Position numbers and translations under genes: made by a program
The notes under the pieces: model-generated
Told to the model about the DNA's origin: nothing
The model's input: only the letters and a program-made list of their open reading frames with translations
Databases searched by the model: none
Origin: Alphaproteobacteria bacterium
Lineage (GTDB): Bacteria > Pseudomonadota > Alphaproteobacteria > Rhodobacterales > Rhodobacteraceae
Direction: 5' to 3'
Assembly (NCBI GenBank): GCA_030148665.1
Contig: JASBSZ010000015.1
Span: forward strand, 62,001-126,000
Length of the DNA: 64,000 nucleotides
Part shown: in pieces, positions 2,891 through 36,227 of the stretch
Position numbering within the stretch: position 1 is the stretch's first letter
How the letters are laid out: each line of letters begins with the position of its first letter

Positions 2891-3949
2891 TCAGGCGTGG
2901 GCGGCCCGTGCCGTCGGCTGGTCCATCAGGGCATCGGTCACCACACCGCCGATCCACATGCACAGCAGGGCCAGCCATGATGTGGCGGTCAGGATCGACG
3001 TGCCGGTCAGCCCGTTGCCGATGGCGCAGCCGCCGGCCAGCATGCCGCCAAATCCCATCAGCGCCGCGCCCACCATCCCCCGTCGCATCGGGGTGGGGCC
3101 GTCAAATCCCTGAAAGACGAACTCCTTCTTGACGACAGACGCGATGAACGCCCCCAGGAACACGCCGGGGATCAGGCCGATGTCGAATTTCAGAATGGGG
3201 TTTCTGGTCAGCAGGAACATCAGCGTATCGGCCGAAGGTCCGGTAAAGGTTGCGCTCTGGATGGTGACGGGCTCGAAACTGACGGCGGCCAGATAGGATG
3301 TCATGATCCATCCCAGCGCGATCGAGAACCCGACCCCCGATGCCATGAACAGGCGCTTGACCCCGATCCGGTTGTGCCAGGCCAGCACCAAGGCATAGGC
3401 CGCGACCGCCAGCCCCACCGCCAACCCGCCCCATTCGGGCAGGTACAACACATCCGAAAGGTCGATATTGCGGCCGTCCGGGGTGATCCACAGCGCCGCA
3501 AGGCGGTTGCGCAGGGGCGCAAGCCATCCCGACAGCGCCATCTGTGCAAAGACCGCAAAGATGAGCCCGTTCACCACCGAGCGCAGATTGCCTGTTGCCG
3601 CCAGCACCAGAAGCCGCCCCGAACAGCCGCGGGTCAGGATCATCCCGGCGCCGAACATCAGCCCGCCCAGAATCGCCCCGGAATAGGATCCGGCGACCGA
3701 CATGATGCGGGCCTCCTCGGAATCCAGAAAGCCCAGCAATTCGGCCCCTTGCGTCCAGACCATTGCCGTTGAAAAGGTCAGCAGCCAGACGGCGATGCTT
3801 GGCCCCATCCTGAAACGGGCAAATTCCACTGTCGCCGCGCGAAGGCAGAACCTGGATTGCTGCGCGGCTATCCCAAAGACAATGCCGACGAACAGCCCCA
3901 CGAGGCCGGCTGCATGCCTTTCCCCAATCGTTTCGACCAACCACAACAT
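2891..3949 (-). CDS. YeeE/YedE-family sulfur (thiosulfate-type) membrane transporter
   Basis: A 352-residue polytopic membrane protein with about nine or ten hydrophobic segments. The family's conserved cysteine-containing signatures are present: QSRFC near residue 33, TRGCSGR near 105, and GGCAIGNG near 305. YeeE/YedE proteins such as TsuA move thiosulfate or other sulfur species across the inner membrane by relay between such cysteines. It is divergent from the MFS gene that follows, and a small AT-rich inverted repeat sits about 46-59 bases upstream of its start. It converges with ntrX, leaving 49 bases between stops. The family is clear; the exact substrate is not. Confidence 0.88.
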   Translation of the reverse strand: MLWLVETIGERHAAGLVGLFVGIVFGIAAQQSRFCLRAATVEFARFRMGPSIAVWLLTFSTAMVWTQGAELLGFLDSEEARIMSVAGSYSGAILGGLMFGAGMILTRGCSGRLLVLAATGNLRSVVNGLIFAVFAQMALSGWLAPLRNRLAALWITPDGRNIDLSDVLYLPEWGGLAVGLAVAAYALVLAWHNRIGVKRLFMASGVGFSIALGWIMTSYLAAVSFEPVTIQSATFTGPSADTLMFLLTRNPILKFDIGLIPGVFLGAFIASVVKKEFVFQGFDGPTPMRRGMVGAALMGFGGMLAGGCAIGNGLTGTSILTATSWLALLCMWIGGVVTDALMDQPTARAAHA

Positions 3950-7495: not shown

Positions 7496-8422
7496 TCAGC
7501 CGGTGTTGGCCGCGGCCCGGTGCTGCGGGTTGCCCGAACCCCCGGCCGGCCCCTGGCCAAGGCGCGCGTTCAGCAGTTCCCAACCCTCGTCGACCTCGCG
7601 GCCGAGGGCCTCGATATCGTCGGTTTGCAGATGATTGTAGCGTTTCTGTCCCTTCAGATATTCCGCGACCGAACGGGTTCCGCGCCGATGGGTCAGGCGC
7701 CAGTCGCGGCCGTCAAAGATCTCGACCATGGGCCACAGGCCGGTTTCGACCGCCAGCCTTGCCGTCGCCACGGCCGAATCGTCGGCGATCCCCCAGCCGG
7801 GCAGGCAGGGAATGAGCACGATGATGACGCGCATGCCGCGCATGTCGCGTGCGCGTTCGACCTTGGTGCGCAGGTCGTTCAGATCCGATGGCGAGGCGGT
7901 TGCGATATAGGGTATGCGATGGGCGGCGAGGATCTCGACCAGGTTCTTCTTGTGGGTGGTCTTGCCGGTCGGCGTGCTGCCTGTCCTGGCCCCGGTCGGC
8001 GTGGACGAGCTTTTCTGCCCGCCGGTATTCATGTAGCCCTCGTTGTCAAAGCAGACATAGAGGATGTCCTCGTTGCGCTCGGCCGCAGATGACAGGGCCT
8101 GAAGGCCGATGTCATAGGTGCCGCCGTCGCCTGCAAGACACAGAACCTGGGTATCGCCTTCGCCACGGGCCTCGAGCGCCTGTCTCACGCCGGCGGCGGC
8201 TGCGGCGGCGGTTTCCAGGGTCGTGTGAAAGATCGGGATCGATGTCGAGGTCATCGGATATCCCCCGCAGATCACCGCCGTACATGACGGCGACACGACG
8301 CCGATGGTGTTCTTGCCCATCGTGTTCAGGATGACCCGCAGGGACAATGCCTCGGCGCATCCGCCACAGGCAACGTGACCGGGGTGAAACAGGCCCTGAT
8401 CGTTGTAGACTATCTTTTCCAT
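7496..8422 (-). CDS. padI: Phenylglyoxylate:acceptor oxidoreductase beta subunit (TPP-binding)
   Basis: A 308-residue beta subunit of the 2-oxoacid:acceptor oxidoreductase superfamily. It has the N-terminal cluster motif ACGGCAE, a thiamine diphosphate site beginning GDGGTYDIG (about residues 102-110) and continuing through FDNEGYMNTGGQ, and further cysteines (PSC, IPCLPG) for the catalytic [4Fe-4S] cluster. It oxidatively decarboxylates a 2-oxoacid to an acyl-CoA together with the alpha and gamma subunits. Taken alone it could be a pyruvate enzyme; its place in an operon with padG, padH and padE, beside padBCDJ and the benzoyl-CoA genes, makes phenylglyoxylate to benzoyl-CoA the best reading. 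It begins three bases after the padG stop. Confidence 0.8.
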   Translation of the reverse strand: MEKIVYNDQGLFHPGHVACGGCAEALSLRVILNTMGKNTIGVVSPSCTAVICGGYPMTSTSIPIFHTTLETAAAAAAGVRQALEARGEGDTQVLCLAGDGGTYDIGLQALSSAAERNEDILYVCFDNEGYMNTGGQKSSSTPTGARTGSTPTGKTTHKKNLVEILAAHRIPYIATASPSDLNDLRTKVERARDMRGMRVIIVLIPCLPGWGIADDSAVATARLAVETGLWPMVEIFDGRDWRLTHRRGTRSVAEYLKGQKRYNHLQTDDIEALGREVDEGWELLNARLGQGPAGGSGNPQHRAAANTG

Positions 8423-8425
8423 GCT

Positions 8426-9592
8426 TCAATCCACCCAGACAGATTCGAACGAAGGATCGCCTGTGCCGATTCCCTCGGCCAGTTCAACAAGGCGACGTAC
8501 GGGCACGTTGACGCCGCCGACGCCGGTCAGGAAACCGTGCAGACGCGGGGCATCGGGTGCGCCGTACAGGGCCGCCGCGATTTCCTGATGCAGGATGCCG
8601 CCCATGCCGGGTGCGTAGTCGCGGTCAAGCACCAGCACGTCATCATGTCCGCATAGCAGATCGCGCAGCAGTTCGCCGGGCAGCGGGCGCAGGAGGCGCA
8701 GCTTGATCAGCCCCGCGCGGATGCCCTTGTCGCGCAGGTCGTCCACGGCCTGGCGGGCGGTGCCGGCGAGGCTGCCGAGCACGATGAAAACGCGATCGGC
8801 GTCTTTGGTACGGTAGGTTTCCAGAGGTCCCGAGGCCCTGCCGGTGAGGGCATGCCACTGGCTGCCGATATCGGAAAACAGGGCCGGAACACGCCCCATC
8901 GCGCGGGCCATGTCGCGCCGTGTGCGGTTCCATGTCGCCTGGTCCGCCGGCGCACCAAAGGCGCGGCCGGTTGCCACGTCGAGGCGAAGATCCTTGTGAA
9001 AGGGGGGCAGGAAATCGTCGATTTCGGCCTGTTCCGGCACGTCCACGGGTTCCATCGCGTGGCTGACATAGAACGCGTCGTGATTGACCATGACCGGCAG
9101 TTCCACCTGTTCGGCAATGCGAAAGGCCTGAATCACGAGGTCCAGCGATTCCTGAGGGCTTTCACTGTACAGCTGGATCCAGCCGGTATCGCGCTGGGAC
9201 AGGCTGTCCAGCTGGTCTGGCCAGAAGCCCCAGGGCGAGGCAGGTGTGCGGTTGACGTTGAACATCACGATCGGCGCCCGCGCCCCGGCCGCGTAATGCA
9301 GCAGCTCGTGCATCAGCATCAGCCCCTGCGACGAGGTTGCCGTGAACACGCGCGCCCCGGTGAGGGATGCGCTGATGCAGGTTGCCATGACCGAATGTTC
9401 GGATTCCGGTGTCAGCATGCGCGCCCCCAGCCTGCCCTGGCCGTGCAGCTCGGTCAGCTTTTCCAGAATCGGCGTCTGGGGCGTGATCGGATAGACCGGA
9501 GCCACGTCGGGACGCGCCAGCATCACCCCCATCGCCACCGCATGGTTGCCGCTGAGCAGTTGCAGCCGCTGGTTGGTTGCCTGATCCTTCAT
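8426..9592 (-). CDS. padG: Phenylglyoxylate:acceptor oxidoreductase alpha subunit
   Basis: A 388-residue alpha subunit of the 2-oxoacid:acceptor oxidoreductase type, starting MKDQATNQ. The signature YPITPQTPILEKL (around residues 33-45) and the TSSQGLMLMHELLHYA region belong to the TPP pyrimidine-binding and alpha-domain core. With padI (beta) and the PadE domain (gamma) it forms the catalytic part of the enzyme. The ATG at 9592 overlaps the TGA of padH by one base (TGATG), indicating translational coupling; the frame remains open upstream within padH but that is only read-through of the antiparallel coding pattern. Substrate assignment rests on context. Confidence 0.8.
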   Translation of the reverse strand: MKDQATNQRLQLLSGNHAVAMGVMLARPDVAPVYPITPQTPILEKLTELHGQGRLGARMLTPESEHSVMATCISASLTGARVFTATSSQGLMLMHELLHYAAGARAPIVMFNVNRTPASPWGFWPDQLDSLSQRDTGWIQLYSESPQESLDLVIQAFRIAEQVELPVMVNHDAFYVSHAMEPVDVPEQAEIDDFLPPFHKDLRLDVATGRAFGAPADQATWNRTRRDMARAMGRVPALFSDIGSQWHALTGRASGPLETYRTKDADRVFIVLGSLAGTARQAVDDLRDKGIRAGLIKLRLLRPLPGELLRDLLCGHDDVLVLDRDYAPGMGGILHQEIAAALYGAPDAPRLHGFLTGVGGVNVPVRRLVELAEGIGTGDPSFESVWVD

Positions 9593-11265
9593 CACTGCAC
9601 CTCCGCCATCATGCGTACCGCCCCGGTCGGACATTCGGCGACGCACAGCCCGCAGCCCTTGCAGTAATCGGTACGGATCTCGTAGCCCCGTTCCAGGCGG
9701 ATCACGGCCATGTCGGGGCAGTACACATAGCAATTGTCGCAGTAGATGCAGGTCCCGCAGGAAAAGCACCTTTCAGCCTCGGCCAGCGCCTGTTCGGCGG
9801 CCAGAGGCAGCTGGACCTCGATAAAGCTGTCCAGACGTTCCTCAACGGGGCGGTTTTCCTGAATCTGGCGTGGCGCAGGGGGGTGGTAGGCGGTGTTTAT
9901 CTCGTCGAAACGCACTTCCGGTGCATTGACCGCCTCATGGTCGGCAGCCTTGTTCAGATAGGTGTCGATCGCCTCGGCGGCCTCTTTGCCCATGCCGATC
10001 GCGGCGCTGACGAAACGGTCCATGCTGGCCAGATCGCCCCCGGCAAAGACCCCCGGCAGGTCTGTCTGCCAGCTGTCGCCTGTCGACGCCAGCGCGCCGT
10101 CGGCCGTAATCAGCCCGTCCCAGATGCCGGGATCCGCATCCTGCCCGATGGCCGTCACGATGGCGTCGGCGTCGATGTCAAAGGCGCTGTCCGCGAGCGC
10201 TTCGACGGTGAATTCGCCGCGGCGCGCGCCGGGGATGAAGCGCACCTTTTCGCAGACCAGTGTCAGCCCTGCGACACGGGGCGTAACGGCGGGCTCGATG
10301 GCGCGCACGCGTGCCCCGGTGACAAGGGAGATGCCCTCTTCGCGGGCCTCGATCACCTCGTCGCGCTGGGCGGGCAGCGTTTCCTCGGCTTCCAGTGCAA
10401 GGATGGTGACGTCATGGCCCAGGCGACGCGCGCTGCGGGCGACATCCATCGCCGCGCTGCCGCCGCCGATCACCACCACGTGGCGGCCCAGAGGGGGTGT
10501 TTCGCCGGCATTTGTCTGCCGCAGGAATTCGGCGCCGTCCATTGCAAGGCCGTCGCGGGCCAGCGCACTGTCAGGGGCAAGCCCCGGCAGGTGTCTGGGA
10601 CGGCTCGCTCCGGTGGCCAGGTAGACGGCGTCGAAATCCTTGCGCAGCTTTTCCAGACCCGCACGCCCCGAAATGCGTTCCCCGCAGCGCAGGTCGAGAC
10701 CGTATTGCGTGATCCGCGCGATCTCGGCGTCCAGCACGGCCTTGTCCAGCCGATAGGATGGAATTCCCGATCGCAGCAACCCGCCGGGGGCATCGGATGC
10801 CTCGAACAGGGTCACGGCATGGCCGCGGCGCATCAGTTGCCAGGCGGCCGACAGGCCGGCGGGGCCGCCACCCACGATCGCCACCTTGCGCCCGGTGGCC
10901 GGGCCAGGTGCGGGCAGGCGCCAGCCCTGCGCTATGGCGTGGTCGCCGACATGGCGTTCGAGGCTGCGGATACTGACGGTTTCATCCAGCTCGCTGCGAT
11001 TGCACACGCTTTGGCATGGGTGGTGACAGACCCGGCCGATCACCGCCGGAAAGGGATTGTTGGCCACCAGCGTCAGCCAGGCCTTGTGCATGTCGCCATC
11101 GCGGATCTGGCCGATCCATTCGGCGATATGGCCGTCCACGGGGCAGGCCCCCCGGCAGGGCGAAGGCACATCGCGGTGCCGGGGCAGGGCGCTGCGCCAG
11201 GTGCCTGTCAGGCGGTTGTCCGAGGTCAGGTAGGTCCACAGGGGCGAGGGCAGGTCATCCATCAT
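9592..11265 (-). CDS. padH: FAD/NAD(P)-binding subunit fused to a ferredoxin domain (PadH-like)
   Basis: This 557-residue protein resembles the small subunit of glutamate synthase (GltD) with an extra C-terminal ferredoxin. The N-terminus has the cysteine pattern CRGACPVDGHI...VCHHPCQSVC for [4Fe-4S] clusters; two dinucleotide folds follow (VAIVGGGPAGLSAAWQL for FAD, VVVIGGGSAAMDVARSA for NAD(P)). The last 80 residues carry CFSCGTC, CIYCDNCYVYCP and CKGCGLCVAECP. In Azoarcus/Aromatoleum the corresponding PadH flavoprotein and PadF ferredoxin are, as I recall, separate chains; here they appear merged. The subunit would pass electrons from the 2-oxoacid oxidoreductase to NAD(P) or ferredoxin. 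Not a true glutamate synthase subunit, because no GltB is present. Confidence 0.75.
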   Translation of the reverse strand: MMDDLPSPLWTYLTSDNRLTGTWRSALPRHRDVPSPCRGACPVDGHIAEWIGQIRDGDMHKAWLTLVANNPFPAVIGRVCHHPCQSVCNRSELDETVSIRSLERHVGDHAIAQGWRLPAPGPATGRKVAIVGGGPAGLSAAWQLMRRGHAVTLFEASDAPGGLLRSGIPSYRLDKAVLDAEIARITQYGLDLRCGERISGRAGLEKLRKDFDAVYLATGASRPRHLPGLAPDSALARDGLAMDGAEFLRQTNAGETPPLGRHVVVIGGGSAAMDVARSARRLGHDVTILALEAEETLPAQRDEVIEAREEGISLVTGARVRAIEPAVTPRVAGLTLVCEKVRFIPGARRGEFTVEALADSAFDIDADAIVTAIGQDADPGIWDGLITADGALASTGDSWQTDLPGVFAGGDLASMDRFVSAAIGMGKEAAEAIDTYLNKAADHEAVNAPEVRFDEINTAYHPPAPRQIQENRPVEERLDSFIEVQLPLAAEQALAEAERCFSCGTCIYCDNCYVYCPDMAVIRLERGYEIRTDYCKGCGLCVAECPTGAVRMMAEVQ

Positions 11266-11813
11266 GCAGCTCCTCTGAGTTCACCGGCGACGAGGGCATG
11301 GGCCTCGCGGCACGCGGCGACGTTTTCATCCTTTTTCGCGGGTGCGGTTTCGCGGATCACCTGGACGAGCGTGTCGATCATGGGTGCCCCCATGGCCGCC
11401 GCAAGCGCGCCCAGAAGGGCCGAGTTCACCACCTTGCCCAGCTGATTGCGCCGGGCAATGGCGCGGCCGTCGATACAGATGGCCCGGGCGCCGTCGGGCA
11501 GATCAAAGCTCGTCGTGGGGCGGGACGAGTTGATCACGACCAGCGTATCCTTGCCGACAGCGCCCAGAAAGGCTGGCTCGATCAGGCTGTCGTCAAAACA
11601 CAGAAAGGCATCGGCGTGCTCGATGTTGCTGCGCAGCCGGATCGGGCTGTCATCGGCGCGCAGGGCCGACATGACCGGCGTTCCCCGGCGTGCGCCGCCA
11701 TAGGTGGCAAAGGTCTGGACGAACTGCCCTTCGGCAAACAGGGCGCGGGCGAGCTGATTGCCCGCGGTCTGGGCGCCTTGCCCCCCGCGGCCGAGTATCA
11801 GGATTTCGCGCAA
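11262..11813 (-). CDS. padE: Candidate free PadE gamma subunit from an internal TTG start
   Basis: Within the ligase-PadE fusion, in the same frame, a TTG at 11813 begins LREILILGRGGQG, exactly where gamma subunits of this family begin. It would give a 183-residue protein of normal gamma-subunit length. The Shine-Dalgarno AAGGAGG lies 8 bases upstream (11822-11828). So free PadE and the long fusion could both be made from one mRNA. An ATG at 11852 is a second possible internal start but has no good ribosome binding site. This is an inference from start signals; expression as a separate protein is not demonstrated. Confidence 0.55.
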   Translation of the reverse strand: MREILILGRGGQGAQTAGNQLARALFAEGQFVQTFATYGGARRGTPVMSALRADDSPIRLRSNIEHADAFLCFDDSLIEPAFLGAVGKDTLVVINSSRPTTSFDLPDGARAICIDGRAIARRNQLGKVVNSALLGALAAAMGAPMIDTLVQVIRETAPAKKDENVAACREAHALVAGELRGAA

Positions 11814-13457
11814 TCTTGGTTCCTCCTTCTGCTGGGGATGCGTTTCGGCCATCGTTGCTGCGTGCCCGGCTGCCCCGGCCCGGCCATTGCTCTCGCTGGG
11901 GGTGTCATTCCCGCCGGGGCGCTGGCGCAGCTTGTATCTCTGGATCTTTCCGGTCGCGGTTTTTGGCAGGTCATCGACAAATTCGATCCAGCGCGGGTAT
12001 TTCCACAGGCCGACCTCGGTCTTGACGGTCTGCTTCAGCGCCTTTCGCAGCGCGTCGGTAACCATTGTGCCCGGTTGCAGAACGACAAGGGCCCTTGGCT
12101 TGATCAGCCCGGCGTCATCGGCGTGGGGGACGACTGCCGCTTCCAGAACCGCGGGGTGGGAAACCAGCGCCTGCTCGACCTCGAATGGCGAGACCCATTT
12201 CCCGCTGACCTTGAACATGTCGTCGGTGCGCCCGCAGTAGTGATAGAAGCCGGCGGAATCGCGAATGTACTTGTCGCCGGTGCGCACCCATTCGCCGACA
12301 AATGTCGCGCGGCTCTTTTCACGCTGGTTCCAGTACCCTTCGGCGGCCGAACCCCCGTTGACCCACAGCTCGCCCAGCGTGCCGTCGGGCACGTCGCAAC
12401 CCGTTTCGTCAACTAGGCGCAGGTGATAGCCCGGAACCGCGCGCCCCGAGGTGCCATAGCGGACATCCCCGGGCCGATTGCCCAGGAACATGTGCAGCAT
12501 TTCGGTCGAGCCCACCGCGTCGAGGATGTCGGTGCCCATCCGTGCCCGCCATTCCAGCCCGATTTCGCGCGGCAGCGCTTCGCCCGCCGAAACGCACAGC
12601 CTCAGCCGTCTTGTGCCGCTTTCGCGCCGGCAGCCGGGATCGGCCAGCATGGATGCATAAAGGGTAGGGACCCCGAAAAACAGCGTCGGGTCGTGCTGTG
12701 CCAGCATGCCGAGCACCGCCTCGGGCGTGGGCCGGTCGGGCAGCAGGGCCGTGGTCGCGCCCACCGACATGGGCAGTGCCATCCCCGAGCCCAGCCCATA
12801 GGCAAAGAACAGCTTGGCAGCGGAAAAGAACAGGTCGTCAGGGCCGATGTCCAGAACGCCTCGGCCCCAGCTTTCGGCTATGAAGGGCAGGCTGGCATGG
12901 ACATGTCGCACGCCCTTGGGATCGCCCGTGGATCCCGACGAGTACAGCCAGAAGGCCACCTCGTCGGCGCATGTGTCGGCCGTATCGAAATCGTCCGGTG
13001 CCTCGGCCAGCAGGGCGTCGAGGGTGGGATAGCCCGCGTCATTGTCGCCGATCACGACCACATGACGCAGGAACGGCAATGCGTCGAACAGGGGCGAGAC
13101 GACCGGCAGCAGGGATTGGTCCACGAACAATGCGCGCACCCGGCTGTCTGACAGAAGGTGGCCATATTGTCCCCTGTTCAGCAGGGTGTTCAGGCATACC
13201 GGAATGACCCCGGCCCGGAGGGCGCCCCAGAAAACGACCGGAAAATCGACCGTATCGCGCATCATCATGGCGATTCGCATTTCGGGTTCGATCCCGAGGC
13301 GGGTCAGGGCATTGGCGAATCGGCAACTGTCGCGCTGCAACCTGCCATAGGTCAGGCTGCGCCACGGGTCGATGAAGGCGACCTTTCGGCCAAGCCCCCG
13401 CGCCACGTTGCGGTCGATCATGTCCGTGACCGCATTGTAGTGCCTTGGCCGATTCAT
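11262..13457 (-). CDS. Benzoate-CoA ligase fused in frame to PadE gamma subunit
   Basis: A 731-residue open frame with two complete modules. Residues 1-515 form an adenylate-forming CoA ligase of the benzoate/4-hydroxybenzoate type: P-loop SSGSTGDPKG at 173-182, AVGSTEMLHMF, TGDKY, and the catalytic C-terminal lysine K504 in KTATGKIQR. Residues 549-731 form the gamma subunit of a 2-oxoacid:acceptor oxidoreductase (ILGRGGQGAQTAGNQLA, TYGGARRGTPVMS). A polar Gly/Ala/Ser-rich linker of about 35 residues joins them with no stop codon. Both modules yield benzoyl-CoA. The gamma part may also be translated alone from an internal TTG (separate entry). The stop overlaps the padH start (ATGA). Ligase specificity (benzoate, 4-hydroxybenzoate or both) cannot be told from sequence alone. 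Confidence 0.8.
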   Translation of the reverse strand: MNRPRHYNAVTDMIDRNVARGLGRKVAFIDPWRSLTYGRLQRDSCRFANALTRLGIEPEMRIAMMMRDTVDFPVVFWGALRAGVIPVCLNTLLNRGQYGHLLSDSRVRALFVDQSLLPVVSPLFDALPFLRHVVVIGDNDAGYPTLDALLAEAPDDFDTADTCADEVAFWLYSSGSTGDPKGVRHVHASLPFIAESWGRGVLDIGPDDLFFSAAKLFFAYGLGSGMALPMSVGATTALLPDRPTPEAVLGMLAQHDPTLFFGVPTLYASMLADPGCRRESGTRRLRLCVSAGEALPREIGLEWRARMGTDILDAVGSTEMLHMFLGNRPGDVRYGTSGRAVPGYHLRLVDETGCDVPDGTLGELWVNGGSAAEGYWNQREKSRATFVGEWVRTGDKYIRDSAGFYHYCGRTDDMFKVSGKWVSPFEVEQALVSHPAVLEAAVVPHADDAGLIKPRALVVLQPGTMVTDALRKALKQTVKTEVGLWKYPRWIEFVDDLPKTATGKIQRYKLRQRPGGNDTPSESNGRAGAAGHAATMAETHPQQKEEPRLREILILGRGGQGAQTAGNQLARALFAEGQFVQTFATYGGARRGTPVMSALRADDSPIRLRSNIEHADAFLCFDDSLIEPAFLGAVGKDTLVVINSSRPTTSFDLPDGARAICIDGRAIARRNQLGKVVNSALLGALAAAMGAPMIDTLVQVIRETAPAKKDENVAACREAHALVAGELRGAA
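11822..11828 (-). promoter_or_regulatory. Internal Shine-Dalgarno for padE
   Basis: AAGGAGG on the minus strand, 8 bases before an in-frame TTG, inside the linker of the ligase-PadE fusion (it encodes Lys-Glu-Glu). It is as strong as the best ribosome binding sites in the window and lies at the domain border. Confidence 0.6.
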
Positions 13458-13478: not shown

Positions 13479-13528
13479 ACCGGGTATCTTAAAAGGTATA
13501 ACAGTACTAATATACTTAAATACCCGGT
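13479..13528. promoter_or_regulatory. Outer inverted repeat flanking the ligase/ridA operator
   Basis: Perfect 9-bp arms ACCGGGTAT (13479-13487) and ATACCCGGT (13520-13528) flank an AT-rich core of 32 bases in the divergent region between the ligase-padE operon and ridA. The core contains the 20-bp palindrome listed separately. The arms could be a second regulator site or an extended operator. Confidence 0.5.
13496..13515. promoter_or_regulatory. Island operator site 1
   Basis: GTATAACAGTACTAATATAC: 5-bp arms GTATA/TATAC around a central AGTACT. It lies 39 bases upstream of the ligase-padE start and 33 bases upstream of ridA. It shares the architecture GTAWW-N3-GTAC-N3-WWTAC with the sites at 14006, 27653 and 36673. 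Confidence 0.65.
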
Positions 13529-14071: not shown

Positions 14072-14569
14072 ATGAGCCGTATCATCTCAGTCACCATCAA
14101 CGGGCGCAGCTATCAGGATCTCGTGCCTGACAACATGCTGCTGATCGATTATCTGCGCGAGCGCAGGCACCTGACTGGCGCCAAGCAGGGATGCGACGGC
14201 GGAGAATGCGGCGCCTGCACGGTTCTTGTGAACGGTGCGCCGCGCCTGTCCTGCATCACGCTGGCGTCATCCTGCGACGGGGTGAACATCGAAACGATCG
14301 AGGGCCAGGCGCGAGGAGGGCACCTCTCGCCCCTGCAGCGGGCGTTTCACGAGCTTCTCGGCGCGCAGTGCGGCTATTGCACGCCGGGCATGATCATGGC
14401 GGCCGAGGCCTTGCTCAGGCGCAATCCCGACCCGGATGACGACCAGATCCGGCAGGCACTGGCCGGCAACATCTGTCGCTGTACCGGCTATGGTGCGATC
14501 ATTCGTGCCGTCCATGCCGCCGCCCTGATGATGCGTGAAGATCTGGCAGGCGCGGAGGTCGGGCGATGA
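14072..14569 (+). CDS. hcrC: 4-Hydroxybenzoyl-CoA reductase gamma subunit ([2Fe-2S])
   Basis: A 165-residue small subunit of the xanthine oxidase family. It has the plant-type [2Fe-2S] motif [15 protein letters not shown] (about residues 47-61) and the second all-helical cluster CGYCTPGMI...NICRCTGY (about 108-142). In 4-hydroxybenzoyl-CoA reductase it carries electrons from ferredoxin towards the molybdenum site, removing the phenolic hydroxyl to give benzoyl-CoA. The gene order gamma-alpha-beta equals hbaBCD of Rhodopseudomonas. Its stop overlaps the hcrA start (ATGA). A hydroxylating family member is possible from this subunit alone; the beta subunit settles the assignment. Confidence 0.9.
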
Positions 14570-16884
14570 AGGATGGCGCGAAACGACATGCCGTCGGCCA
14601 GCCGGCCCCGCTGATCGACGGTATCGAAAAGGTCACCGGGCGGGCGCGCTATACCGCCGACCTCGATCACGGGGATGCGCTGGTTGGCGCGATCCTGCGC
14701 TCGCCCGTCAGTCATGGGCGCATCCTGCGCGTGGATACCAGTCGCGCCGAGGCGCTCGACGGTGTCATGGCGGTTGTGACCGGCGATGACTGCGCCGTGC
14801 CGTATGGCGTCATTCCCATTGCCCAGAACGAATATCCGCTGGCGCGCGACAGGCTGCGCTACCGGGGCGAGCCCGTGGCCGCCGTGGCTGCCGTTGATGC
14901 GAAAACCGCGCGCAGGGCGCTCGACCTGATCGTGCTGGAAATCGAGGAACTGCCCGCCGTCCATACCAGTGACGAGGCCCGCGCGCCGGACGCTCCGCGG
15001 TTGCACGACAACAAGCCCGGGAATATCGAGCGCGAGGTTCACCATGTCTTTGGCAACCCGGCCGATGGCTTTGCCCAGGCCGACCTGGTGCGCGAGGCCA
15101 GCTTTTCCTGCGCCGAGGTCAACCACGCGATGATGGAGCCCCACGCCGCGCTGGCCGAGTACGACCCCGAGCGCGACCGGCTGACCTTTCATTCCGTTAC
15201 CCAGGTGCCGTTTTACGTCCATCTGACGCTGGCGCGTTGCCTCGAGATGGACGCCTCGCGCATCCGCGTGATCAAGCCTTTTGTCGGCGGCGGATTCGGG
15301 GCGCGCACCGAGACCCTGAATTTCGAGATCATCACTGCGCTGCTGGCACGCAAGGCCGGGGCCAGGGTGATGATGCGCCTCTCTCGCGAGGAGAGCTTTC
15401 TCACCCATCGCGGCCGGCCGCAGACCGACGTGCATCTGAAGATCGGGATGACCGGCAAGGGCAGGATCACCGCAGTCGAGGCCGAGGTCACGATGGCCGG
15501 CGGCGCCTATGCCGGCTATGGGCTGGTGACCATCCTTTATGCCGGCGCATTGTTGCATGGCATCTACGACATCGCCAATGTCCGCTATGACGGCTGGCGC
15601 GTCTATACCAACACACCGCCCTGTGGTGCCATGCGAGGGCATGGAACCGTGGATGTCCGCCATGCCTTTGAATGTCTGCTCGACCGGATGAGTCGCAAAC
15701 TGGGGCTTGATCCATTCGAGGTGCGCCGGGCAAATCTGCTGAATGCGCCGCTGTTCACCGCCAATGGCCTGATGGTCAATTCATATGGTCTGGATGAATG
15801 TCTGGACAGGGTCGAAAAGGCCAGCAACTGGCATGAACGCAAGGGCCGGCTGGGGCCGGGGCGGGGGCTGGGCATGGCTTGCTCGCACTATGTCAGCGGT
15901 GCCGCCAAACCCGTCCACTGGACGGGCGAGCCCCATGCCGTCGTCTCGATGAAGCTGGATTTCGATGGCGGGATCACCGTGTTTACCGGGGCCAGCGATA
16001 TCGGTCAGGGCTCCAGCACGATCGTTGCGCTTGCCACGGCCGAGATCCTGTCCATCGGGATCGAGCGGATCCGGGTCGTGGCCAATGACAGCGCCGTGAC
16101 GCCCAAGGACAACGGATCCTATTCGTCCCGCGTGACCTTCATGGTGGGCAATGCGGCCATCGAGGCCGCCAGGGCGATGCGCGAAAAACTGGTGGCGGCT
16201 GCGGCAAACAAGCTGGAGGCCGACCCCGAGGATATCCTCTGCGAGGCCGAGACATTCTCGGTCAGGGGCAGCGCCCAGTCGATGCTGGGCTTTGAAGAGG
16301 TCGCCCTTGCCGCCCTTGCCGCCGAGGGCACGATCAACGTCAAGGGAACCTTTTCCACCCCGCCCGAGGCCCAGGGGGGCAAACATCGTGGCGGTGCCGT
16401 CGGCGCAACCATGGGCTTTTCCTACGGGGCGCAGGTGGTCGAGGTCGAGGTCGATCGCGATACCGGCCAGGTGATGGTGAAAAAGGTCTGGGCGGCACTC
16501 GATTGCGGCTATGCCATCAACCCGCTGGCCGTGCGCGGTCAGATCGAGGGCTCGGTCTGGATGGGCATGGGTCAGGCGCTGAGCGAAGAAACCGCATATC
16601 GCGAGGGGCTGCAATCCCATGCCGGCCTGCTGGACTACAAGGTACCGACAATCGTCGAATCCCCGGATATCGAGGTATTCATTGTCGAATCCATCGACCC
16701 CAACGGTCCCTTCGGGGCCAAGGAGGCTGGCGAAGGGGCATTGTCCGGCTTTCCGCCCGCGCTGGCCAATGCCATCGCCGATGCGACAGGGGTCGATGCC
16801 GATTTCCTGCCATTCACGCCCGACCGTCTGCTGGAAGCGATGAGAAAGGCCGAAAAGGCCCGCAAGAGAGAGGCGGCCCAATGA
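14566..16884 (+). CDS. hcrA: 4-Hydroxybenzoyl-CoA reductase alpha subunit (molybdenum)
   Basis: A 772-residue molybdopterin cytosine dinucleotide subunit of the xanthine oxidase family. Visible family motifs are [13 protein letters not shown] near the N-terminus, VGGGFGART, the [10 protein letters not shown] segment, [11 protein letters not shown], and the C-terminal [11 protein letters not shown] that supplies the conserved active-site Glu. It binds 4-hydroxybenzoyl-CoA and performs the Birch-like reductive dehydroxylation with Mo. It is translationally coupled on both sides (ATGA with hcrC and with hcrB). Length matches known HcrA/HbaC proteins. Expression is probably controlled from the operator at 14006. 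Confidence 0.92.
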
Positions 16885-17861
16885 CCGAGTACATGCCGGA
16901 ATTCGAGCATCTGGTGCCCGCTTCGCTGGACGAGGCCCTTGCCGTGCTGGCCGAGCGACCGGATTCGCGCGTTTGCGCCGGGGGAACGGACCTGCTGGTA
17001 AACATGCGCCGCGGGCTGGTCGAGGCCGGGACGCTGGTCGATCTGGGCATGGTCGATGCGCTGCGTATCCTGAAGCAGGACGATACCGGCCTGACCATCG
17101 GCGCCGGTGTCACGCTGGCGGCATTGCTCAAGGCCGATCTGGACTGGTCGCAGCTGAATGCCCTGCGCGAGGCGCTGGCTGCGGTGGCGGGCCCGACCCA
17201 TCGCGAGATGGCGACCGTTGGAGGAAACCTGTGTCAGGATACGCGCTGCCTGTACTACAATCAGAGCGAGTGGTGGCGGCGATCCAACGACTACTGCCTG
17301 AAATATCGCGGTGAAACCTGCCATGTCGCGCCCAAGGGAAACCGTTGTCGTGCGGCTTATTGCGGTGATCTGGCACCTGCGCTGATGGTGCTGGGGGCCG
17401 AGGTTTCGATTGCCGGGCCTGATGGCGCGCGCCGGGTCGGTATCGGCGATCTGTTTGCCGAGGATGGCGCCGACCACCTGAAACTGAAGGCCGGCGAAAT
17501 CCTGGTCGCGGTGCATCTTCCCCGCGCCGAGGGGCGCTCGACCTACGGCAAGATCAGGCAGCGCGGCGCGATCGACTTTCCTCTGGCCGGTGTCGCCGTT
17601 TCCTGTCGCGGCCGGGATGACGGCCTGTGGTTCTCGCTTGCCGTTACGGGGACGAATTCATGCCCTGTCATGGTCGAGATGCCCGCCCCTATGACCCGCG
17701 ACGACGCGGCTGACGTATTTTTCCGCGACATGTCGCGCCGTGTGCAAAAGGCCGTGTCGCCGCAGCGTACCACCACCGTCGCACCCCATTTCCGCCGCCT
17801 GTCGGTGTCGGCCCTGGCCGCGCGGCTGGCGCGTGGTCTGGCCGGGGTTGCCGATCCGTGA
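16881..17861 (+). CDS. hcrB: 4-Hydroxybenzoyl-CoA reductase beta subunit (FAD and extra [4Fe-4S])
   Basis: A 326-residue FAD subunit starting [11 protein letters not shown] at the ATG that overlaps the hcrA stop. Besides the family flavin motifs ([22 protein letters not shown]) it contains an insertion with cysteines 123, 139, 147 and 156 ([29 protein letters not shown]). This insertion is the hallmark of HcrB: it holds a [4Fe-4S] cluster that lowers the potential and reverses electron flow compared with ordinary hydroxylases. It is therefore the strongest evidence that the operon is a 4-hydroxybenzoyl-CoA reductase and not a xanthine or nicotinate type enzyme. Confidence 0.93.
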
Positions 17862-19989: not shown

Positions 19990-20835
19990 TCAGGATGCTT
20001 TCAGCAACTGCCCCTGGGCGGCCAGTTTTTCGGCCCTGAAGGCGCCCCACAGCGCAGCTCCGATGGCGCCGGCATAGATCGAGTCGGGGTGGTTGGCGAC
20101 GGTGGCCTCCATGCCCTTCATCTTGTCCAGCTGTTCGCGCAATGCCGCGCACAGCCCCTCGTCGGTGGCCAGCCCGCCGGTCATCATGATCACGTCGCTG
20201 CGCACGCCGATCGATTTCAGCAACCGCGCAAGGCGATTGGCCATCGACAGGTGGATCCCCTTCAGGATATTGGGTGTGGTAATCCCGCGGCTGACCATGT
20301 TGATGACGTCGGTCTCGGCCAGAACCGCGCAGATGGACGATACCTCTTCGGGATCGTCGGCCTGCTGGCTGAGGGTGCCGATCTCGTCCTGGGCGATGCC
20401 CAGATAGCGGGCGATGTTTTCCAGGAACTGACCCGAGCCGGACGCGCATTGGCTGGTCATCTTGTAATTGACGACCTTGCCCTTGTCGTCGGTGATGATG
20501 GCCCGGCCATGCAGCGCGCCGCAGTCCAGAACGGCAACCGTGTCGGGGTTCAGAAAGCGCGCCCCGCGGGCGTGGCTGGTCATCGAGTAGAAATGCCCGG
20601 TGTGAAAGGGGATCGCCTCGCCCTCGCCGGTGGTCGCAACATAGTCGAGGTCGCTTTCCTTGAGCCCGGCCTGTGCGAGACAGTCGTCAAAGGCCTCGCG
20701 TGCCAGCAGCATGGGGTCGCGCTGGCGGATGCGCAGGGTTGCGCGCGACAGCCATTCCTCGTTGCCATCCTCGACCCGGAATATCGCGACCTTGACCGCC
20801 CCGGTTCCAACGTCAATTCCCGCTGACAATGTCAT
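19990..20835 (-). CDS. bcrD: Benzoyl-CoA reductase subunit D (ATPase module)
   Basis: A 281-residue ASKHA-type ATPase subunit. The phosphate-1 loop [14 protein letters not shown] is at the N-terminus, DCGALHGRA is the second nucleotide motif, and [12 protein letters not shown] supplies the cysteine that, with BcrA, binds the bridging [4Fe-4S] cluster. BcrAD hydrolyses ATP to push low-potential electrons from ferredoxin to the BcrBC catalytic module. The ATG overlaps the bcrA stop (ATGA), consistent with equal synthesis of the two ATPase subunits. The closest described types are Thauera BcrD and Rhodopseudomonas BadG. Confidence 0.95.
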
Positions 20836-22157
20836 GCCTCAACTCCTTCCATGTTTCCTTCGGCGGCGCGGCGGGCAAATTCGGCAGCCCCCAGCGAGCC
20901 GGTATAGATCGAGTCCGGGTCGATATTGATCTTCACCTCGCCATAGTTCTCGTGCACCAGTTTCTTCAACTCGCGCACGGCGGCCTCGTTCTTGGCGACG
21001 CCGCCGGTAAAGGTGAACTCGTCCTTGACCCCGCCCGAGCGCGAGAGAATCGAGATTGCCCGCAGGATGATCGCCCGGTGCAACCCGGCCAGGATGTCCT
21101 CGCGCTTTTCACCCAGTGCCAGGCGGTCGCGCAGCTCGGCGCCGGCGAAAACCGTGCAGGTCGAGTTGATGCGCGCGGGCTTTTCCGACTGCATGGCAAG
21201 CGGGCCAAGCTCGTGCAGGCCCATGTTCATCTCGTCTGCGATATAGCCCAGATAGCGGCCACAGCCGGCGGCGCAGCGGTCGTTCATCTGGAAATTCTCG
21301 ACGATGCCGTTTTCATCGACCTGGATGCCCTTGGTATCCTGGCCGCCGATGTCCAGCACCGTGCGGGTGTTGGGATACATCATATGCGCGCCCAGACCGT
21401 GGCACAGGATCTCGCTGCGGATATGCTCCTTGGAAAAGGGCAGGGTCACGCGGCCATAGCCGGTGCCGACCAGCCAGGTTTCCTCAAGGTCGATGTCCAG
21501 CGCCCTTTCGACCGGTGCCAGCATGTCGCCAGACAATGCCGCACCTTCGGCAGTGACGCGGATGAGCGCGCTCTTGAACTTGTCCGACAGGGTTCCCTTG
21601 GGTGGGCGGTTTTCGACCGCGATGATCGACTTGTCATAGACGTTCAGAAGCAGGTCATAGGGCAGACCCATGTCGCGGGCGACCTCTTCGGACAGCGCCA
21701 GGTAACGTGAACCGGCGATGTCGCGAAAGAAATCCGACTTGCGCGCGGCACCCGGTGCGAACATGGCCGGAGATTCCGCCCTCAGGCGCGAAAAGATTTC
21801 GGATAATGCCTCTTTCACCCCTTCTGCATCATGGGTGAAACGCGCGCCGTGAATCTGGGTCAGACAGGTCTCTTCGAGATCGTCCAGCTGTTCCAGAAAC
21901 TGTTCCAGACGAAAGGCCCGCTCGAGCGAGGAAAGAAAATCCTCGACTTCCTTCCTGGTTCCGTCCTCGGCGCCGAATTCGCGTCGGAACAGGGTAAAGC
22001 GCGCATCTACCGCGGCCTCCTGCTGGGCTACCCGACAGGCGGTCTCGTAATTCGAGCGCGAGTTGGTGATGCCACGTCCCAGGATATCACCCGCCTCGTC
22101 CAGCAGGATTGCCTTGGTGGTGGTCGATCCCAGATCGATGCCAACATAGGTCTTCAT
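20832..22157 (-). CDS. bcrA: Benzoyl-CoA reductase subunit A (ATPase module)
   Basis: A 441-residue ATPase subunit starting [19 protein letters not shown]. Motifs are the phosphate-1 loop near residues 6-15, [11 protein letters not shown], and [13 protein letters not shown], whose cysteines share a [4Fe-4S] cluster with BcrD. The long insertion between the first motif and the core is characteristic of BcrA/BadF and not of BcrD or 2-hydroxyglutaryl-CoA dehydratase activators. The ATG at 22157 overlaps the bcrB stop (ATGA). It is the larger half of the ATP-driven electron activator. Confidence 0.95.
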
Positions 22158-23461
22158 GCCGCTTTCCCCCTTCCGCTGCGTTTCTGTTCGACCATCTGGA
22201 AATAGCTTTCCAGCCGGTTCTTGATGTTGGCGGCCGAGAAATAGCGCGGGTCCACCAGGTCGCTTTCGATGAATGCGGCGGGTTTGCCCGTGCGTTTCTC
22301 GACCTCGCGCATGATCAGAAGCTGTCCGGCCGAGAAGCTGTTGCACGACTTGATCGAGTTGATCAGCAGACCGTCGGCCTCGTACTCGTTGATATAGTTG
22401 ACCAGCATGTCGATGCGCATGGGCAACGAGCGGTTGGTGTAGACGTTCAGGCAGTATTCCGCCAGTGATTCCAGAGGCTTGTCCGGGTTGTGGCGGAAGC
22501 CGAAATCATAGGTGCCGCCGACCTTGGTATAGCTCGAAGCCACCACGGTTGCGCCCTCGTCATAGAACATTTTCCAGAACTGGCGGAAATTGGTGTAGTT
22601 GGGCGGCCCCTCGACGACCAGGCGATATTTCTCTTCCTTCATGGTGCCGTCGGGGGTAACGGGGCCAAGGCCCTTTCTCATGCGTTCCTCGACCTCTTCG
22701 CGCAGGAAACGGTAATAGTCGATCGCGTCATCGGTGCCGCGGAAGGCGCCGAAGATCGGGCCGATATAGTAGATGCCGCCGAAATAGGCGTCGATCGGGC
22801 TGGGCTTGTTCTTGGCGCTTTGCAGCACGGCGACCAGATCGTCCTCGGCCTGTGCCGACTTTTTCAGATATTCGCGCAGCCGGTCGATGTCGAACTTGAC
22901 ACCGCTGACCTGTTCCAGGGTCGGGATCACGTCCTCCTTCAGCTGTTTCACCATGTACTGGATCATGTTCGGCGTGATCTTGCCGTCGGCCATGTATGGT
23001 GTCTGCAGGAATATGGTCGGGCACTTGTACTGCTCGCGCAGCAGCTCGAACCATTTGAGGAAGGTGAAACAGCCCGTATAGCTGAGCAGCAGCACGTCCG
23101 GTTTGGGCAGCGGTTTGCCGTTGGGGCCGATATTGCCCTTGAGCATCATGCCGATGTCGGATTTCACATATGTGCAGACATCCTCGGAATGGCCGGCGCG
23201 CTCGGCCTCCATGATATAGGCGCCCGACTTGCGCCGCAGACCGTTCTGGATGGCATTAACCTCGGGCAGGTTGTTGACCAGGTCAAAGCACATGAGCAGC
23301 TCGTTCAGGTTGCCCGGCACGAATGTCGAGGCCACCTTTTCGCCGGTTTCGGGTGCGTTGGTCAGGCGCTCGTAATGCGCGTTGATCATTTCCTTCTGTT
23401 TCAGCATGGAGGCGTCCTTGATGACCTCCTGCTTGGCGGGTTTGGCGGCTGTAGGTCTCAT
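22154..23461 (-). CDS. bcrB: Benzoyl-CoA reductase subunit B (catalytic module)
   Basis: A 435-residue HgdB/BadE-like subunit. Cysteines in [11 protein letters not shown] and [12 protein letters not shown] are candidate [4Fe-4S] ligands. BcrB and BcrC together bind the substrate and iron-sulfur clusters and reduce benzoyl-CoA to cyclohexa-1,5-diene-1-carbonyl-CoA. The ATG at 23461 overlaps the bcrC stop (ATGA); an in-frame ATG four codons upstream is less likely because it lacks coupling. Its presence with A, C and D makes this a complete class I (ATP-dependent) reductase. Confidence 0.94.
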
Positions 23462-24633
23462 GCGGCACTCCATAGCTTGATCGAATCGACAAAGGTTCCG
23501 GCCTGTTCGCGGATCGGCTGCATCTGGCCCGAGTTTTCTGCGTACTTGAATGCGATGTGGGGAATGCCCGCCTCTTTCAGTACGTTCTGGAGCATCGGGC
23601 GATCCAGCAGAGCCGGGTCGCAGAAGCTGGTCGAGGCAAAGATAACACCCTCGGCGCCGCTTTCGCGTACGGCTCGAACCAGGAACTTGCCCTTGTCGGC
23701 AAGGACGGGCTCGTATTTCGCGGCCGTTTCCATCGAGTTGTGGAGGAAGGCCTTTGACAGGTTCTCGACCGGGTCGCCCTCGGTCGGGACGTCTCCCATC
23801 AGCCAGCGGGCCACCAGGATGAAATCGTCATCCACCACATAGCAGCCCGCCAGTTCGAGCGACTTTATCAGGTTCAGCGGCGGCTGTTCGCAGAACATGC
23901 CGGTCAGCACCACGCGGGCATTGTCCTTGATCGGGCGCGGGGTGGCCGCGGCGGCGGCGACATAGTCGCGCAGGATCTGGTTGTGCTCCTCGACCGGCAC
24001 CAGCAGCCCCGCGCGCATCACCAGATAGGATTCGGATGCCGGTGCCTGCCACGGTTTGGCTGCGCGCAGGCGATAGAGTTCGCCGATCAGGCGGCGGTTT
24101 TCGTTGTAGACCTCGATTGACGCGCGGATGTCGTCATCGGTGATCTCGTGGCCGGAAATCTTTTCCAGATCATGGAGCAGTTCGCGCATCTCGCCGATGT
24201 AGAACTGCCCGCCGATATCATCGACATAGGTCTGCGGTGTGTCGAAATACTTGACATAGACATCGGGGAACAGCGTTTTCCACATGCCCGAAAGGTTGCG
24301 GATCACGTCGCAGATCGAGGGGAACAGCATCCCGTCCACGAAATCCAGCCGGCCCGAAAGGCCCAGCTCGATCGTCGAGCGGGGGATGCGGCAGATATAG
24401 CTTTGATAATAGGCGTCGCCATGAATGACTTCGAGGTTGTCGCCGCCCCCCATGATCCCGAGCGGCAGCATCCCGGCGGCGTGGATCAGCTCGCGCGGAA
24501 CATAGATCGGCAGGTGGCCGATCACCTTGCGACCCTCTTTTGCGGCCTTCCATTCGCGGGCGTGACTGAATGTCAGATCGTCAAACAGGGCCTCGCAACG
24601 GGCAACGATCTCTTCTGTTGTCGGACTGGTCAT
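23458..24633 (-). CDS. bcrC: Benzoyl-CoA reductase subunit C (catalytic module)
   Basis: A 391-residue subunit of the same HgdB-like family as BcrB, with YVPRELIHAAGMLPLGIMGGG near the N-terminus and cysteines in SICDVIRN, MFCEQPP and STSFCDPAL. It carries an iron-sulfur cluster and, with BcrB, the benzoyl-CoA site. The ATG at 24633 overlaps the dch stop (ATGA) and has GGGAG 5 bases upstream; an ATG four codons earlier is possible. The order C-B-A-D is the same as in Thauera. Confidence 0.94.
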   Translation of the reverse strand: MTSPTTEEIVARCEALFDDLTFSHAREWKAAKEGRKVIGHLPIYVPRELIHAAGMLPLGIMGGGDNLEVIHGDAYYQSYICRIPRSTIELGLSGRLDFVDGMLFPSICDVIRNLSGMWKTLFPDVYVKYFDTPQTYVDDIGGQFYIGEMRELLHDLEKISGHEITDDDIRASIEVYNENRRLIGELYRLRAAKPWQAPASESYLVMRAGLLVPVEEHNQILRDYVAAAAATPRPIKDNARVVLTGMFCEQPPLNLIKSLELAGCYVVDDDFILVARWLMGDVPTEGDPVENLSKAFLHNSMETAAKYEPVLADKGKFLVRAVRESGAEGVIFASTSFCDPALLDRPMLQNVLKEAGIPHIAFKYAENSGQMQPIREQAGTFVDSIKLWSAA

Positions 24634-27594: not shown

Positions 27595-27652
27595 GCATTC
27601 TCTCCCGTTGTCATCTGTGGCCCGGTTGACAGGGCCTGGAATTCCTATTACC

Positions 27653-27672
27653 GTAAAATGGTACTCGAATAC
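27653..27672. promoter_or_regulatory. Island operator site 3 (had/korA divergent region)
   Basis: GTAAAATGGTACTCGAATAC, with central GTAC and A/T arms as in the other three sites. It lies 59-78 bases upstream of had and 76-95 bases upstream of korA, and so could control both divergent operons. Confidence 0.65.
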
Positions 27673-27747
27673 TTTTTTAACGTCAACCAAGGATTTCCCC
27701 AAGAGCACGCTTTGCGGAGATCCGGCAGACGGGAGCGGAAGGAAAAG

Positions 27748-36216: not shown

Positions 36217-36227
36217 GTGTCCGCCCC

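Follow-up and report, generated by a model that had tools for sequence, protein, structure and literature searches.

The window, a contiguous stretch of 64,000 nt from an alphaproteobacterial genome, carries a gene in which a benzoate-CoA ligase and the gamma subunit of a 2-oxoacid oxidoreductase are encoded in one open reading frame. With some reservation we regard it as probable that two operon neighbours have fused here, that a phenylglyoxylate-type oxidoreductase thereby has the ligase tethered to it, and that the internal start for the free gamma subunit has been retained.

A benzoate-CoA ligase joined to an oxidoreductase gamma subunit

The fused ORF (11262–13457, minus strand) runs uninterrupted from ATG to TGA and encodes 731 aa (79.3 kDa), with Pfam matches to AMP-binding (residues 19–376), AMP-binding_C (426–504) and the POR gamma domain (558–719), all above cut-off. 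The original prediction of a single stop-free frame coding for a full ligase and a full gamma subunit is thus borne out. Over its whole length the ligase domain (11922–13442, minus strand; residues 6–512) scores 763.8 bits against the NCBIfam benzoate-CoA ligase family TIGR02262 (cut-off 375.25 bits), and its top matches among solved structures are benzoate-CoA ligases, a family with solved members such as 2v7b and 4rlf; benzoate activation by this half is predicted from a clear family membership. The gamma part (11262–11813, minus strand) begins at residue 549 of the fused protein, would comprise 183 aa (19.2 kDa) if begun at TTG, and is complete by family model, belonging to the PorC/KorC gamma subfamily (TIGR02175 PorC_KorC, 125.4 bits, cut-off 81.1, model positions 1–175 of 177). 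Between the two lies a linker of 36 aa rich in A, G, P and E (11814–11921, minus strand; residues 513–548) with low prediction confidence, and the AlphaFold2 model of the fused protein shows two folded parts joined by a low-confidence stretch at residues 499–546.

The source genome (G000), a 48-contig assembly estimated as 94% complete, yielded a single gamma match of the fused-gene type (E ≤ 1e-15), so that for the H, alpha and beta genes that follow, no candidate gamma other than the fused gene was found. The same genome also encodes an unfused benzoate-CoA ligase paralogue in a box cluster.

Ligase-gamma junctions in relatives and origin of the fusion

A ligase gene directly upstream of gamma was found at 18 distinct loci (identical junctions counted once; ligases of >50% identity ending within 400 nt). 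A stop lies between the genes in 16 of them, and the two are fused in the window and in one further genome (G397), which the search for the same fusion elsewhere, proposed beforehand, has thereby brought to light. In the 16 unfused pairs the distance between ligase and gamma ranges from -8 to +37 nt; six already share the same frame, and five overlap by 4 or 8 nt. The G397 fusion lies on a 2.5 Mb contig of an assembly of about 10 contigs. The distance separating the end of its ligase from the gamma ATG is the same as in Ruegeria marisrubri (L063), with a sense codon replacing the L063 stop, and sequence comparison accounts for the G397 fusion by the loss of a single stop codon, the former ribosome binding site and ATG being retained. 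The 16 unfused pairs together with G397 and L063 uphold the earlier proposal that neighbouring genes were fused by loss of a stop (or of the frame). The further suggestion that this happened recently is not sustained, since even the nearest relative in the tree shares no more than 64% identity over the four-protein alignment, too little to date the fusion as recent.

A wide occurrence of the fusion was rejected by surveys of named loci, plasmids, genus and class. No fusion was seen among 80 named gamma loci (the best 80 of 169 confirmed, some cut by contig ends); at two loci the frame runs off the contig, one having no ligase match (L097) and the other too short an upstream region to tell (L107). 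A plasmid collection gave no gamma match at E ≤ 1e-20, across 54 genomes from the genus to which R. marisrubri belongs the sole gamma was that species' own, unfused, and among 385 genomes of the class gamma occurred in two, the window's own and one unfused. A search of open-licence papers found no description of a benzoate-CoA ligase-gamma subunit fusion.

A single ancestral fusion common to the window and G397 was rejected on the four-protein tree (p-AU 9.9e-6, in an AU test run after an earlier FastTree was already known), and the two are likewise not paired on the ligase tree, on which no AU test was made. Both are quick trees with SH-aLRT support only. The FastTree covered 62 of 82 loci, those in which each of the four proteins reached 85% length, with the others dropped, and the four-protein tree used 27 of these 62, two of them flagged for odd composition (L071, L048). 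On this tree the window's sister is a locus (L058) 64% identical over the four-protein alignment, in which no ligase adjoins gamma, and the window branch measures 0.75 changes per site. The best reading of these trees is that the fusion would have arisen at least twice.

An assembly artefact, in which a single base miscalled or dropped masks a stop or a frame change between genes that are in truth separate, as in most relatives examined, would agree with the 16 of 18 comparable loci being unfused, with the overlaps of 4 or 8 nt noted above and with the contig number and completeness of the source genome. Of the alternative frames of the linker, +1 remains open as far as a stop within gamma, whereas +2 meets a stop soon after the linker begins, a layout in which an error in a single base could be enough to mask a gene pair. 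The codon bias of the linker nevertheless favours the fused frame (score 0.017) over the other two (-0.29 and -0.37), the score being low for genuine coding (3rd percentile among in-frame stretches). In addition, the neighbouring known genes that were searched are long open ORFs, and the same two genes are fused on another branch in the roughly 10-contig G397 assembly, so the fused state is viable. We consider an artefact unlikely.

A probable internal start at the domain border

As originally predicted, a Shine-Dalgarno (SD) sequence, AAGGAGG (11822–11828, minus strand), is located within the linker 8 nt ahead of an in-frame TTG at the domain border (11811–11813, minus strand). In position the TTG is homologous to the ATG with which unfused gamma genes begin: it pairs in the alignment with the gamma ATG at 16 of 16 unfused junctions, and in alignment A1 its column holds Met in eight of nine other gammas, the exception (L035) having an ATG two codons upstream. 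AAGGAGG as a remarkable feature on its own was rejected, with six copies in the window and 5.06 expected. The combination of AAGGAGG, 8 nt and TTG is present once against an expectation of 0.06 and appeared in 6 of 100 shuffles. When 915 internal in-frame ATG, GTG and TTG codons from 38 ORFs (picked by length, third-position G+C and family matches) were ranked by anti-SD pairing energy, the TTG at 11813 took rank 2, behind ATG 3703. Ranks 3 to 5 (9592, 9595 and 22157) fit the true alpha and bcrA starts, overshot by the mechanically assigned ORF starts, which are wrong for at least these two genes. Among the 18 ligase-gamma junctions the window's SD is the second strongest. An SD and an in-frame start thus stand together at the domain border above chance, as dual output calls for, and a fusion protein plus free gamma from this one gene is the likely outcome predicted. 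Position of the TTG and strength of the SD speak for the proposed internal start; the free product itself is a predicted one.

TTG is a weak start codon, and all 16 unfused gamma genes start with ATG, as opposed to the TTG in the window. A predicted local hairpin moreover occludes part of the linker SD. A precedent comes from the alphaproteobacterium Caulobacter, in which TTG accounts for 10.3% of the start codons identified and 75 alternative starts within genes were found (PMC4117421). If the long protein were the sole product, SD and TTG would be a relic that had lost efficient initiation and all gamma in the complex would bear a ligase. The replacement of ATG by TTG would weaken internal initiation in this sense, ribosomes passing along the linker from the ligase start could obstruct it, and G397 shows that stop loss alone can create such a fusion. 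This reading has to contend with the high standing of the SD in both rankings, and one would expect a relic to erode over a branch of the length given above, provided that the fusion arose early enough on it. We consider a fusion protein without free gamma rather improbable and keep to dual output.

The oxidoreductase and its gene island

The stop of gamma and the start of H overlap in ATGA (11262–11265, minus strand). H (9592–11265, minus strand; 557 aa), so named by resemblance or position, is an NAD(P)-binding subunit of GltD type with a C-terminal PorD-like ferredoxin domain (NF009410, 553.1 bits, cut-off 516). It is followed on the same strand by an alpha subunit (POR_N, PFOR_II; 8426–9592), for which ATG 9592 with its strong SD is taken as start and the mechanical ORF begins at 9769, and by a TPP-binding beta subunit (7496–8422; 308 aa) assigned by family models.

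These genes are part of an anaerobic benzoyl-CoA/phenylacetate island. Divergent from the fusion, hcrC-like, hcrA and a third ORF (16881–17861) read as hcrB represent 4-hydroxybenzoyl-CoA reductase (14072–17861, plus strand); hcrA reaches 1242.9 bits (cut-off 994.55) and hcrC 239.5, slightly below its cut-off of 257.8, while the name hcrB comes from position, sequence and its relatives adjoining hcrA in L058, L127 and L130. The ATP-dependent benzoyl-CoA reductase genes bcrC-bcrB-bcrA-bcrD (19990–24837, minus strand) all exceed their cut-offs (TIGR02261, 02259, 02260, 02263) and make the island one of Bcr type. Further along lie a korA-korB-like 2-oxoacid oxidoreductase with gamma and alpha fused in KorA (26719–30317, plus strand; KorA-like 524.1 bits, cut-off 482.75; KorB-like 253.7, slightly below 261.9) and, between 30425 and 36318 on the minus strand, a PaaK-like phenylacetate-CoA ligase (30425–31750; 597.9 bits, below the cut-off of 646.3) followed by a padC/D-like Fe-S plus NrfD protein and a padB-like molybdopterin oxidoreductase (31883–36318), the padB and padC names resting on resemblance and context.

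Gamma had been called PadE. Against the curated PadE model NF045762 it scores 92 bits with a cut-off of 300, and the label, which fits by context, is drawn from the gene surroundings. That cut-off was passed by none of five genomes, where the highest score, 132 bits, came from an Aromatoleum-named MAG, and by none of 14 control genomes, and so has no positive control here. Alpha and beta also stay below the Pad cut-offs (258.6 bits against 700 for PadG, 215.5 against 700 for PadI), and the initial ~148 positions of PadI have no counterpart in beta. Alpha scores best with the pyruvate-type model PorA_Arch (364.1 bits, below that model's cut-off of 550), among solved structures gamma and alpha both match a pyruvate:ferredoxin oxidoreductase best, gamma its gamma subunit, and no structure named PadE is among the solved matches of gamma.

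These scores and matches, with the PorC_KorC assignment of gamma, would suit an electron donor to benzoyl-CoA reductase: in place of a phenylglyoxylate dehydrogenase, an enzyme that draws on pyruvate or another 2-oxoacid to supply reduced ferredoxin or NAD(P)H. The fusion would then couple substrate activation to electron supply and not two sources of benzoyl-CoA. Speaking against such a donor, the separate korAB-like pair of the island can presumably fill this role, padB-like genes occur near gamma-H-alpha-beta in 16 of 80 named loci (flank at most 6 kb; best 80 of 169), and an NAD(P)-binding subunit of H type is known from the Pad enzyme. We see the donor as possible, at less than even chance. 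It is compatible with the other readings and not exclusive of them. From the context we infer phenylglyoxylate as the substrate. Of the idea that two benzoyl-CoA-forming enzymes are tied together, the family of the ligase half is clear and the oxidoreductase lies among padB/padC-like, paaK-like, bcr and hcr genes, with the Pad scores of gamma, alpha and beta counting against it; that both partners make benzoyl-CoA is plausible by context only.

Proposed mechanism and significance

We propose that adjacent ligase and gamma genes of one anaerobic aromatic operon, gamma being part of a phenylglyoxylate-type 2-oxoacid oxidoreductase (gamma-H-alpha-beta), lost the separating stop or frame. Initiation at the ligase ATG would give the 79 kDa ligase-linker-gamma protein, and because the old gamma ribosome binding site and start position are intact (AAGGAGG, 8 nt, TTG), ribosomes could also start within the linker and yield a free gamma of 19 kDa. 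Gamma for the complex could come from either form. With the fused one, the ligase would be attached to the complex through a flexible tether of 36 aa, and the benzoyl-CoA reductase encoded nearby might thus be fed by two activities that form benzoyl-CoA. Presumably both products are translated and the fused gamma is assembled into the complex. Going further, the fusion may have been selected more than once for the benefit of tethering benzoate activation to a phenylglyoxylate-type enzyme, giving a two-entry benzoyl-CoA-forming particle in which the internal start would determine what fraction of complexes bears a ligase; this we regard as doubtful, and if true it would make fusion with retention of the ancestral start a general route to a sub-stoichiometric enzyme tether.

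The locus is a clear case of operon neighbours becoming fused, with relatives in gap, overlap and in-frame-stop states and the fused state, its old start signal kept, in two lineages held apart by the tree. If both products are made, one gene would set both ligase-oxidoreductase tethering and free-subunit supply, and would allow a direct test of whether anaerobic aromatic degraders hold benzoyl-CoA-forming enzymes together.

Comparison with known systems

Phenylglyoxylate:NAD+ oxidoreductase PadEFGHI of Aromatoleum/Azoarcus is built of alpha, beta, gamma, delta-type ferredoxin and NAD(P)-binding parts. The window has all of these, with padB/padC-like and phenylacetate-CoA-ligase-like genes in its island, but its gamma, alpha and beta fall below the Pad cut-offs, gamma is fused to a ligase, the delta domain is joined to the NAD(P)-binding subunit and beta is shortened relative to PadI. 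The ligase domain is complete like those of TIGR02262 and of 2v7b and 4rlf and differs in its C-terminal linker and gamma, the box-cluster paralogue being unfused. Fused 2-oxoacid oxidoreductases are known in the form of single-chain PFOR, and gamma is joined to another chain here as well as in the gamma-alpha KorA-like ORF of the same window; in both of those cases the partner belongs to the same enzyme, whereas the window's gamma is fused to a different one.

PMC10666635 reports an enrichment of short overlaps in genes for heteromeric-complex subunits, and the five overlapping ligase-gamma pairs resemble such overlapping, translationally coupled pairs, in contrast to the window and G397, which are without any separating stop. 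As with the internal starts of Caulobacter (PMC4117421), an internal SD and an in-frame start are predicted to give a short product consisting of one domain; unlike those, the start in the window would be inherited from a formerly separate gene, with both products predicted.

The fused reading frame

The ORF at 11262-13457 on the minus strand is open over 731 codons and, as originally predicted, encodes in a single frame both a complete benzoate-CoA ligase (residues 6-512, TIGR02262 with 763.8 bits at a cut-off of 375.25) and a complete 2-oxoacid oxidoreductase gamma subunit (residues 549-731, TIGR02175 with 125.4 bits at a cut-off of 81.1). The top solved-structure matches of the ligase domain are benzoate-CoA ligases. 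The two domains are joined by a 36-residue linker rich in Ala, Gly, Pro and Glu, and in the AlphaFold2 model of the fused protein (34-row alignment, mean pLDDT 80, pTM 0.63) residues 499-546 lie below 50 and separate two folded parts; some shorter stretches below 50 are also found in the ligase part. The host genome carries a second, unfused benzoate-CoA ligase with 61% identity, located in a boxB/boxC cluster of the aerobic route (L124:2701-8362, contig 46). In the ligase tree the operon ligases (18 rows, 99% SH-aLRT) include that of the window, and the box-linked enzyme falls in the other clade.

Gene context and identity of the oxidoreductase

Directly 3' of gamma, with an ATGA overlap, lies H, which encodes an NAD(P)-binding subunit with a PorD-like ferredoxin domain, followed by the alpha and beta genes. 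A RidA-like gene, an hcrC-like gene (slightly below cut-off), hcrA (above cut-off) and a probable hcrB are divergent from the fused ORF. Farther along the island we found bcrCBAD (all four above cut-offs), a korAB-like pair, a PaaK-like ligase gene (below cut-off) and padB/padC-like genes. Because gamma-H-alpha-beta sits together with these hcr, bcr, korAB-, PaaK- and padB/padC-like genes, the island looks suited to processing phenylacetate, benzoate and 4-hydroxybenzoate anaerobically, by routes that meet at benzoyl-CoA. Phenylglyoxylate is described as an intermediate from phenylacetyl-CoA to benzoyl-CoA (PMC9765128).

Several further features of the island were noted. The gap that separates the ligase-gamma operon from the divergent RidA/hcr operon holds a palindrome (13496-13515) within a 12-nt inverted repeat (13476-13487/13520-13531), a possible regulator site. 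The 446-aa ORF at 24870-26210 (plus strand) has no match in Pfam or NCBIfam, and its relatives adjoin korA in four of the named loci of relatives with gamma (L076, L091, L102 and L106; best 80 of 169 confirmed). About 354 N-terminal residues of the KorA-like ORF (26719-27780, plus strand) are without any Pfam match; the start may be wrong, or this stretch may form an unknown domain. The padC-like ORF at 31883-33481 (minus strand, 532 aa) combines Fe-S clusters and an NrfD-like membrane part in one chain, resembling a PadC-PadD fusion.

The name PadE given to gamma in the original prediction fits this gene context, but the NCBIfam PadE cut-off was missed (92 of 300), as were those for PadG (258.6 of 700) and PadI (215.5 of 700). 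The PadE cut-off was reached by none of five genomes, one of them a MAG named Aromatoleum (best 132 bits), and by none of 14 control genomes; it thus lacked a positive control in this analysis. A pyruvate-type enzyme is the less likely alternative: padB-like genes near gamma-H-alpha-beta in 16 of the 80 named loci (best 80 of 169; flanks ≤6 kb) and the korAB-like pair, presumably available as ferredoxin donor for benzoyl-CoA reductase, speak against it. A phenylglyoxylate-type enzyme, with the Pad assignment made by context, is likeliest.

Ligase-gamma junctions in relatives

In the family sample gamma was present in 10 of 394 genomes, with the ligase directly upstream in eight and fused in two. 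Among the 80 named loci (best 80 of 169) H follows gamma in 79, L072 ending after gamma, and the ligase is directly upstream in 15; none is fused, with the upstream sequence of L107 too short to tell. All collected loci together gave 18 distinct junctions with the ligase directly upstream. A stop separates the genes in 16, with spacings between -8 and +37 nt; five of these pairs overlap, and in six both genes already share one frame. The two fused junctions are those of the window and of G397, the one further genome obtained when, as had been proposed, the same fusion was sought elsewhere.

The G397 fusion (L123:7536-9743, 735 aa) is encoded beside a DctPQM-type transporter. In Ruegeria marisrubri (L063) the ligase end FKLRN-stop, 36 nt and the gamma ATG are all in one frame; G397 keeps this spacing, with a leucine codon at the stop position and the CCGGAG ribosome-binding site and ATG retained, so that a single stop-codon loss explains the fusion. 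The predicted stop loss between neighbours is therefore well supported by relatives, while the route taken in the window is less certain: in some relatives, e.g. L071, the ligase tail runs through the gamma Shine-Dalgarno (SD) sequence and stops just within gamma, so either stop loss or a one-base frame change would do. In a quick four-protein tree the window groups with L058, and G397 falls among L055, L059, L063 and L064; a single clade of the window and G397 is rejected (p-AU 9.9e-6). No ligase adjoins gamma in L058, hence it was lost or placed differently there. Two independent fusion events are the simplest reading.

The fusion in the window could still be a sequence error. By codon score its linker reaches only the 3rd percentile among true coding stretches, which low complexity could account for, but the bias per codon favours the fused frame (0.017 vs -0.29 and -0.37 in the other two). 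That G397, whose assembly has about 10 contigs, carries the fusion too shows the fused state to be viable and lowers the doubt over the frame without removing it.

The internal start

The predicted AAGGAGG is indeed present in the linker (11822-11828), 8 nt ahead of the TTG at 11813-11811. In the window the heptamer alone is no more frequent than chance (6 found, 5.06 expected), whereas AAGGAGG-8 nt-TTG occurs once at 0.06 expected; the place of the motif, unlike the heptamer by itself, exceeds chance. Anti-SD pairing was scored at all internal in-frame ATG, GTG and TTG codons of 38 chosen ORFs (n=915). TTG 11813 ranked second, with -11.0 compared to a weaker -5.9 at the ligase's own ATG, and ranks 3-5 match real alpha and bcrA starts overshot by mechanical ORFs. 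The strongest internal SD belongs to ATG 3703 (minus strand) inside the ORF 2891-3949 of a TsuA-like transporter, perhaps a wrong ORF start or another internal start.

The position of TTG 11813 is occupied by ATG in all 16 unfused ligase-gamma junctions, and by Met in eight of nine other gammas in alignment A1, the ninth (L035) having an ATG two codons upstream. Against an internal start count a predicted hairpin touching the SD and the TTG itself, a weak start codon. Judged from sequence, dual output of fusion and free gamma from one gene is likely.

Our search of open-licence papers found nothing on a ligase-gamma fusion. The gene is a case of fused operon neighbours with the internal start retained. 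Internal and TTG starts have precedent in an alphaproteobacterium: a study of Caulobacter reports TTG as 10.3% of identified start codons, 75 alternative internal starts and an SD in only 24.6% of CDSs (PMC4117421).
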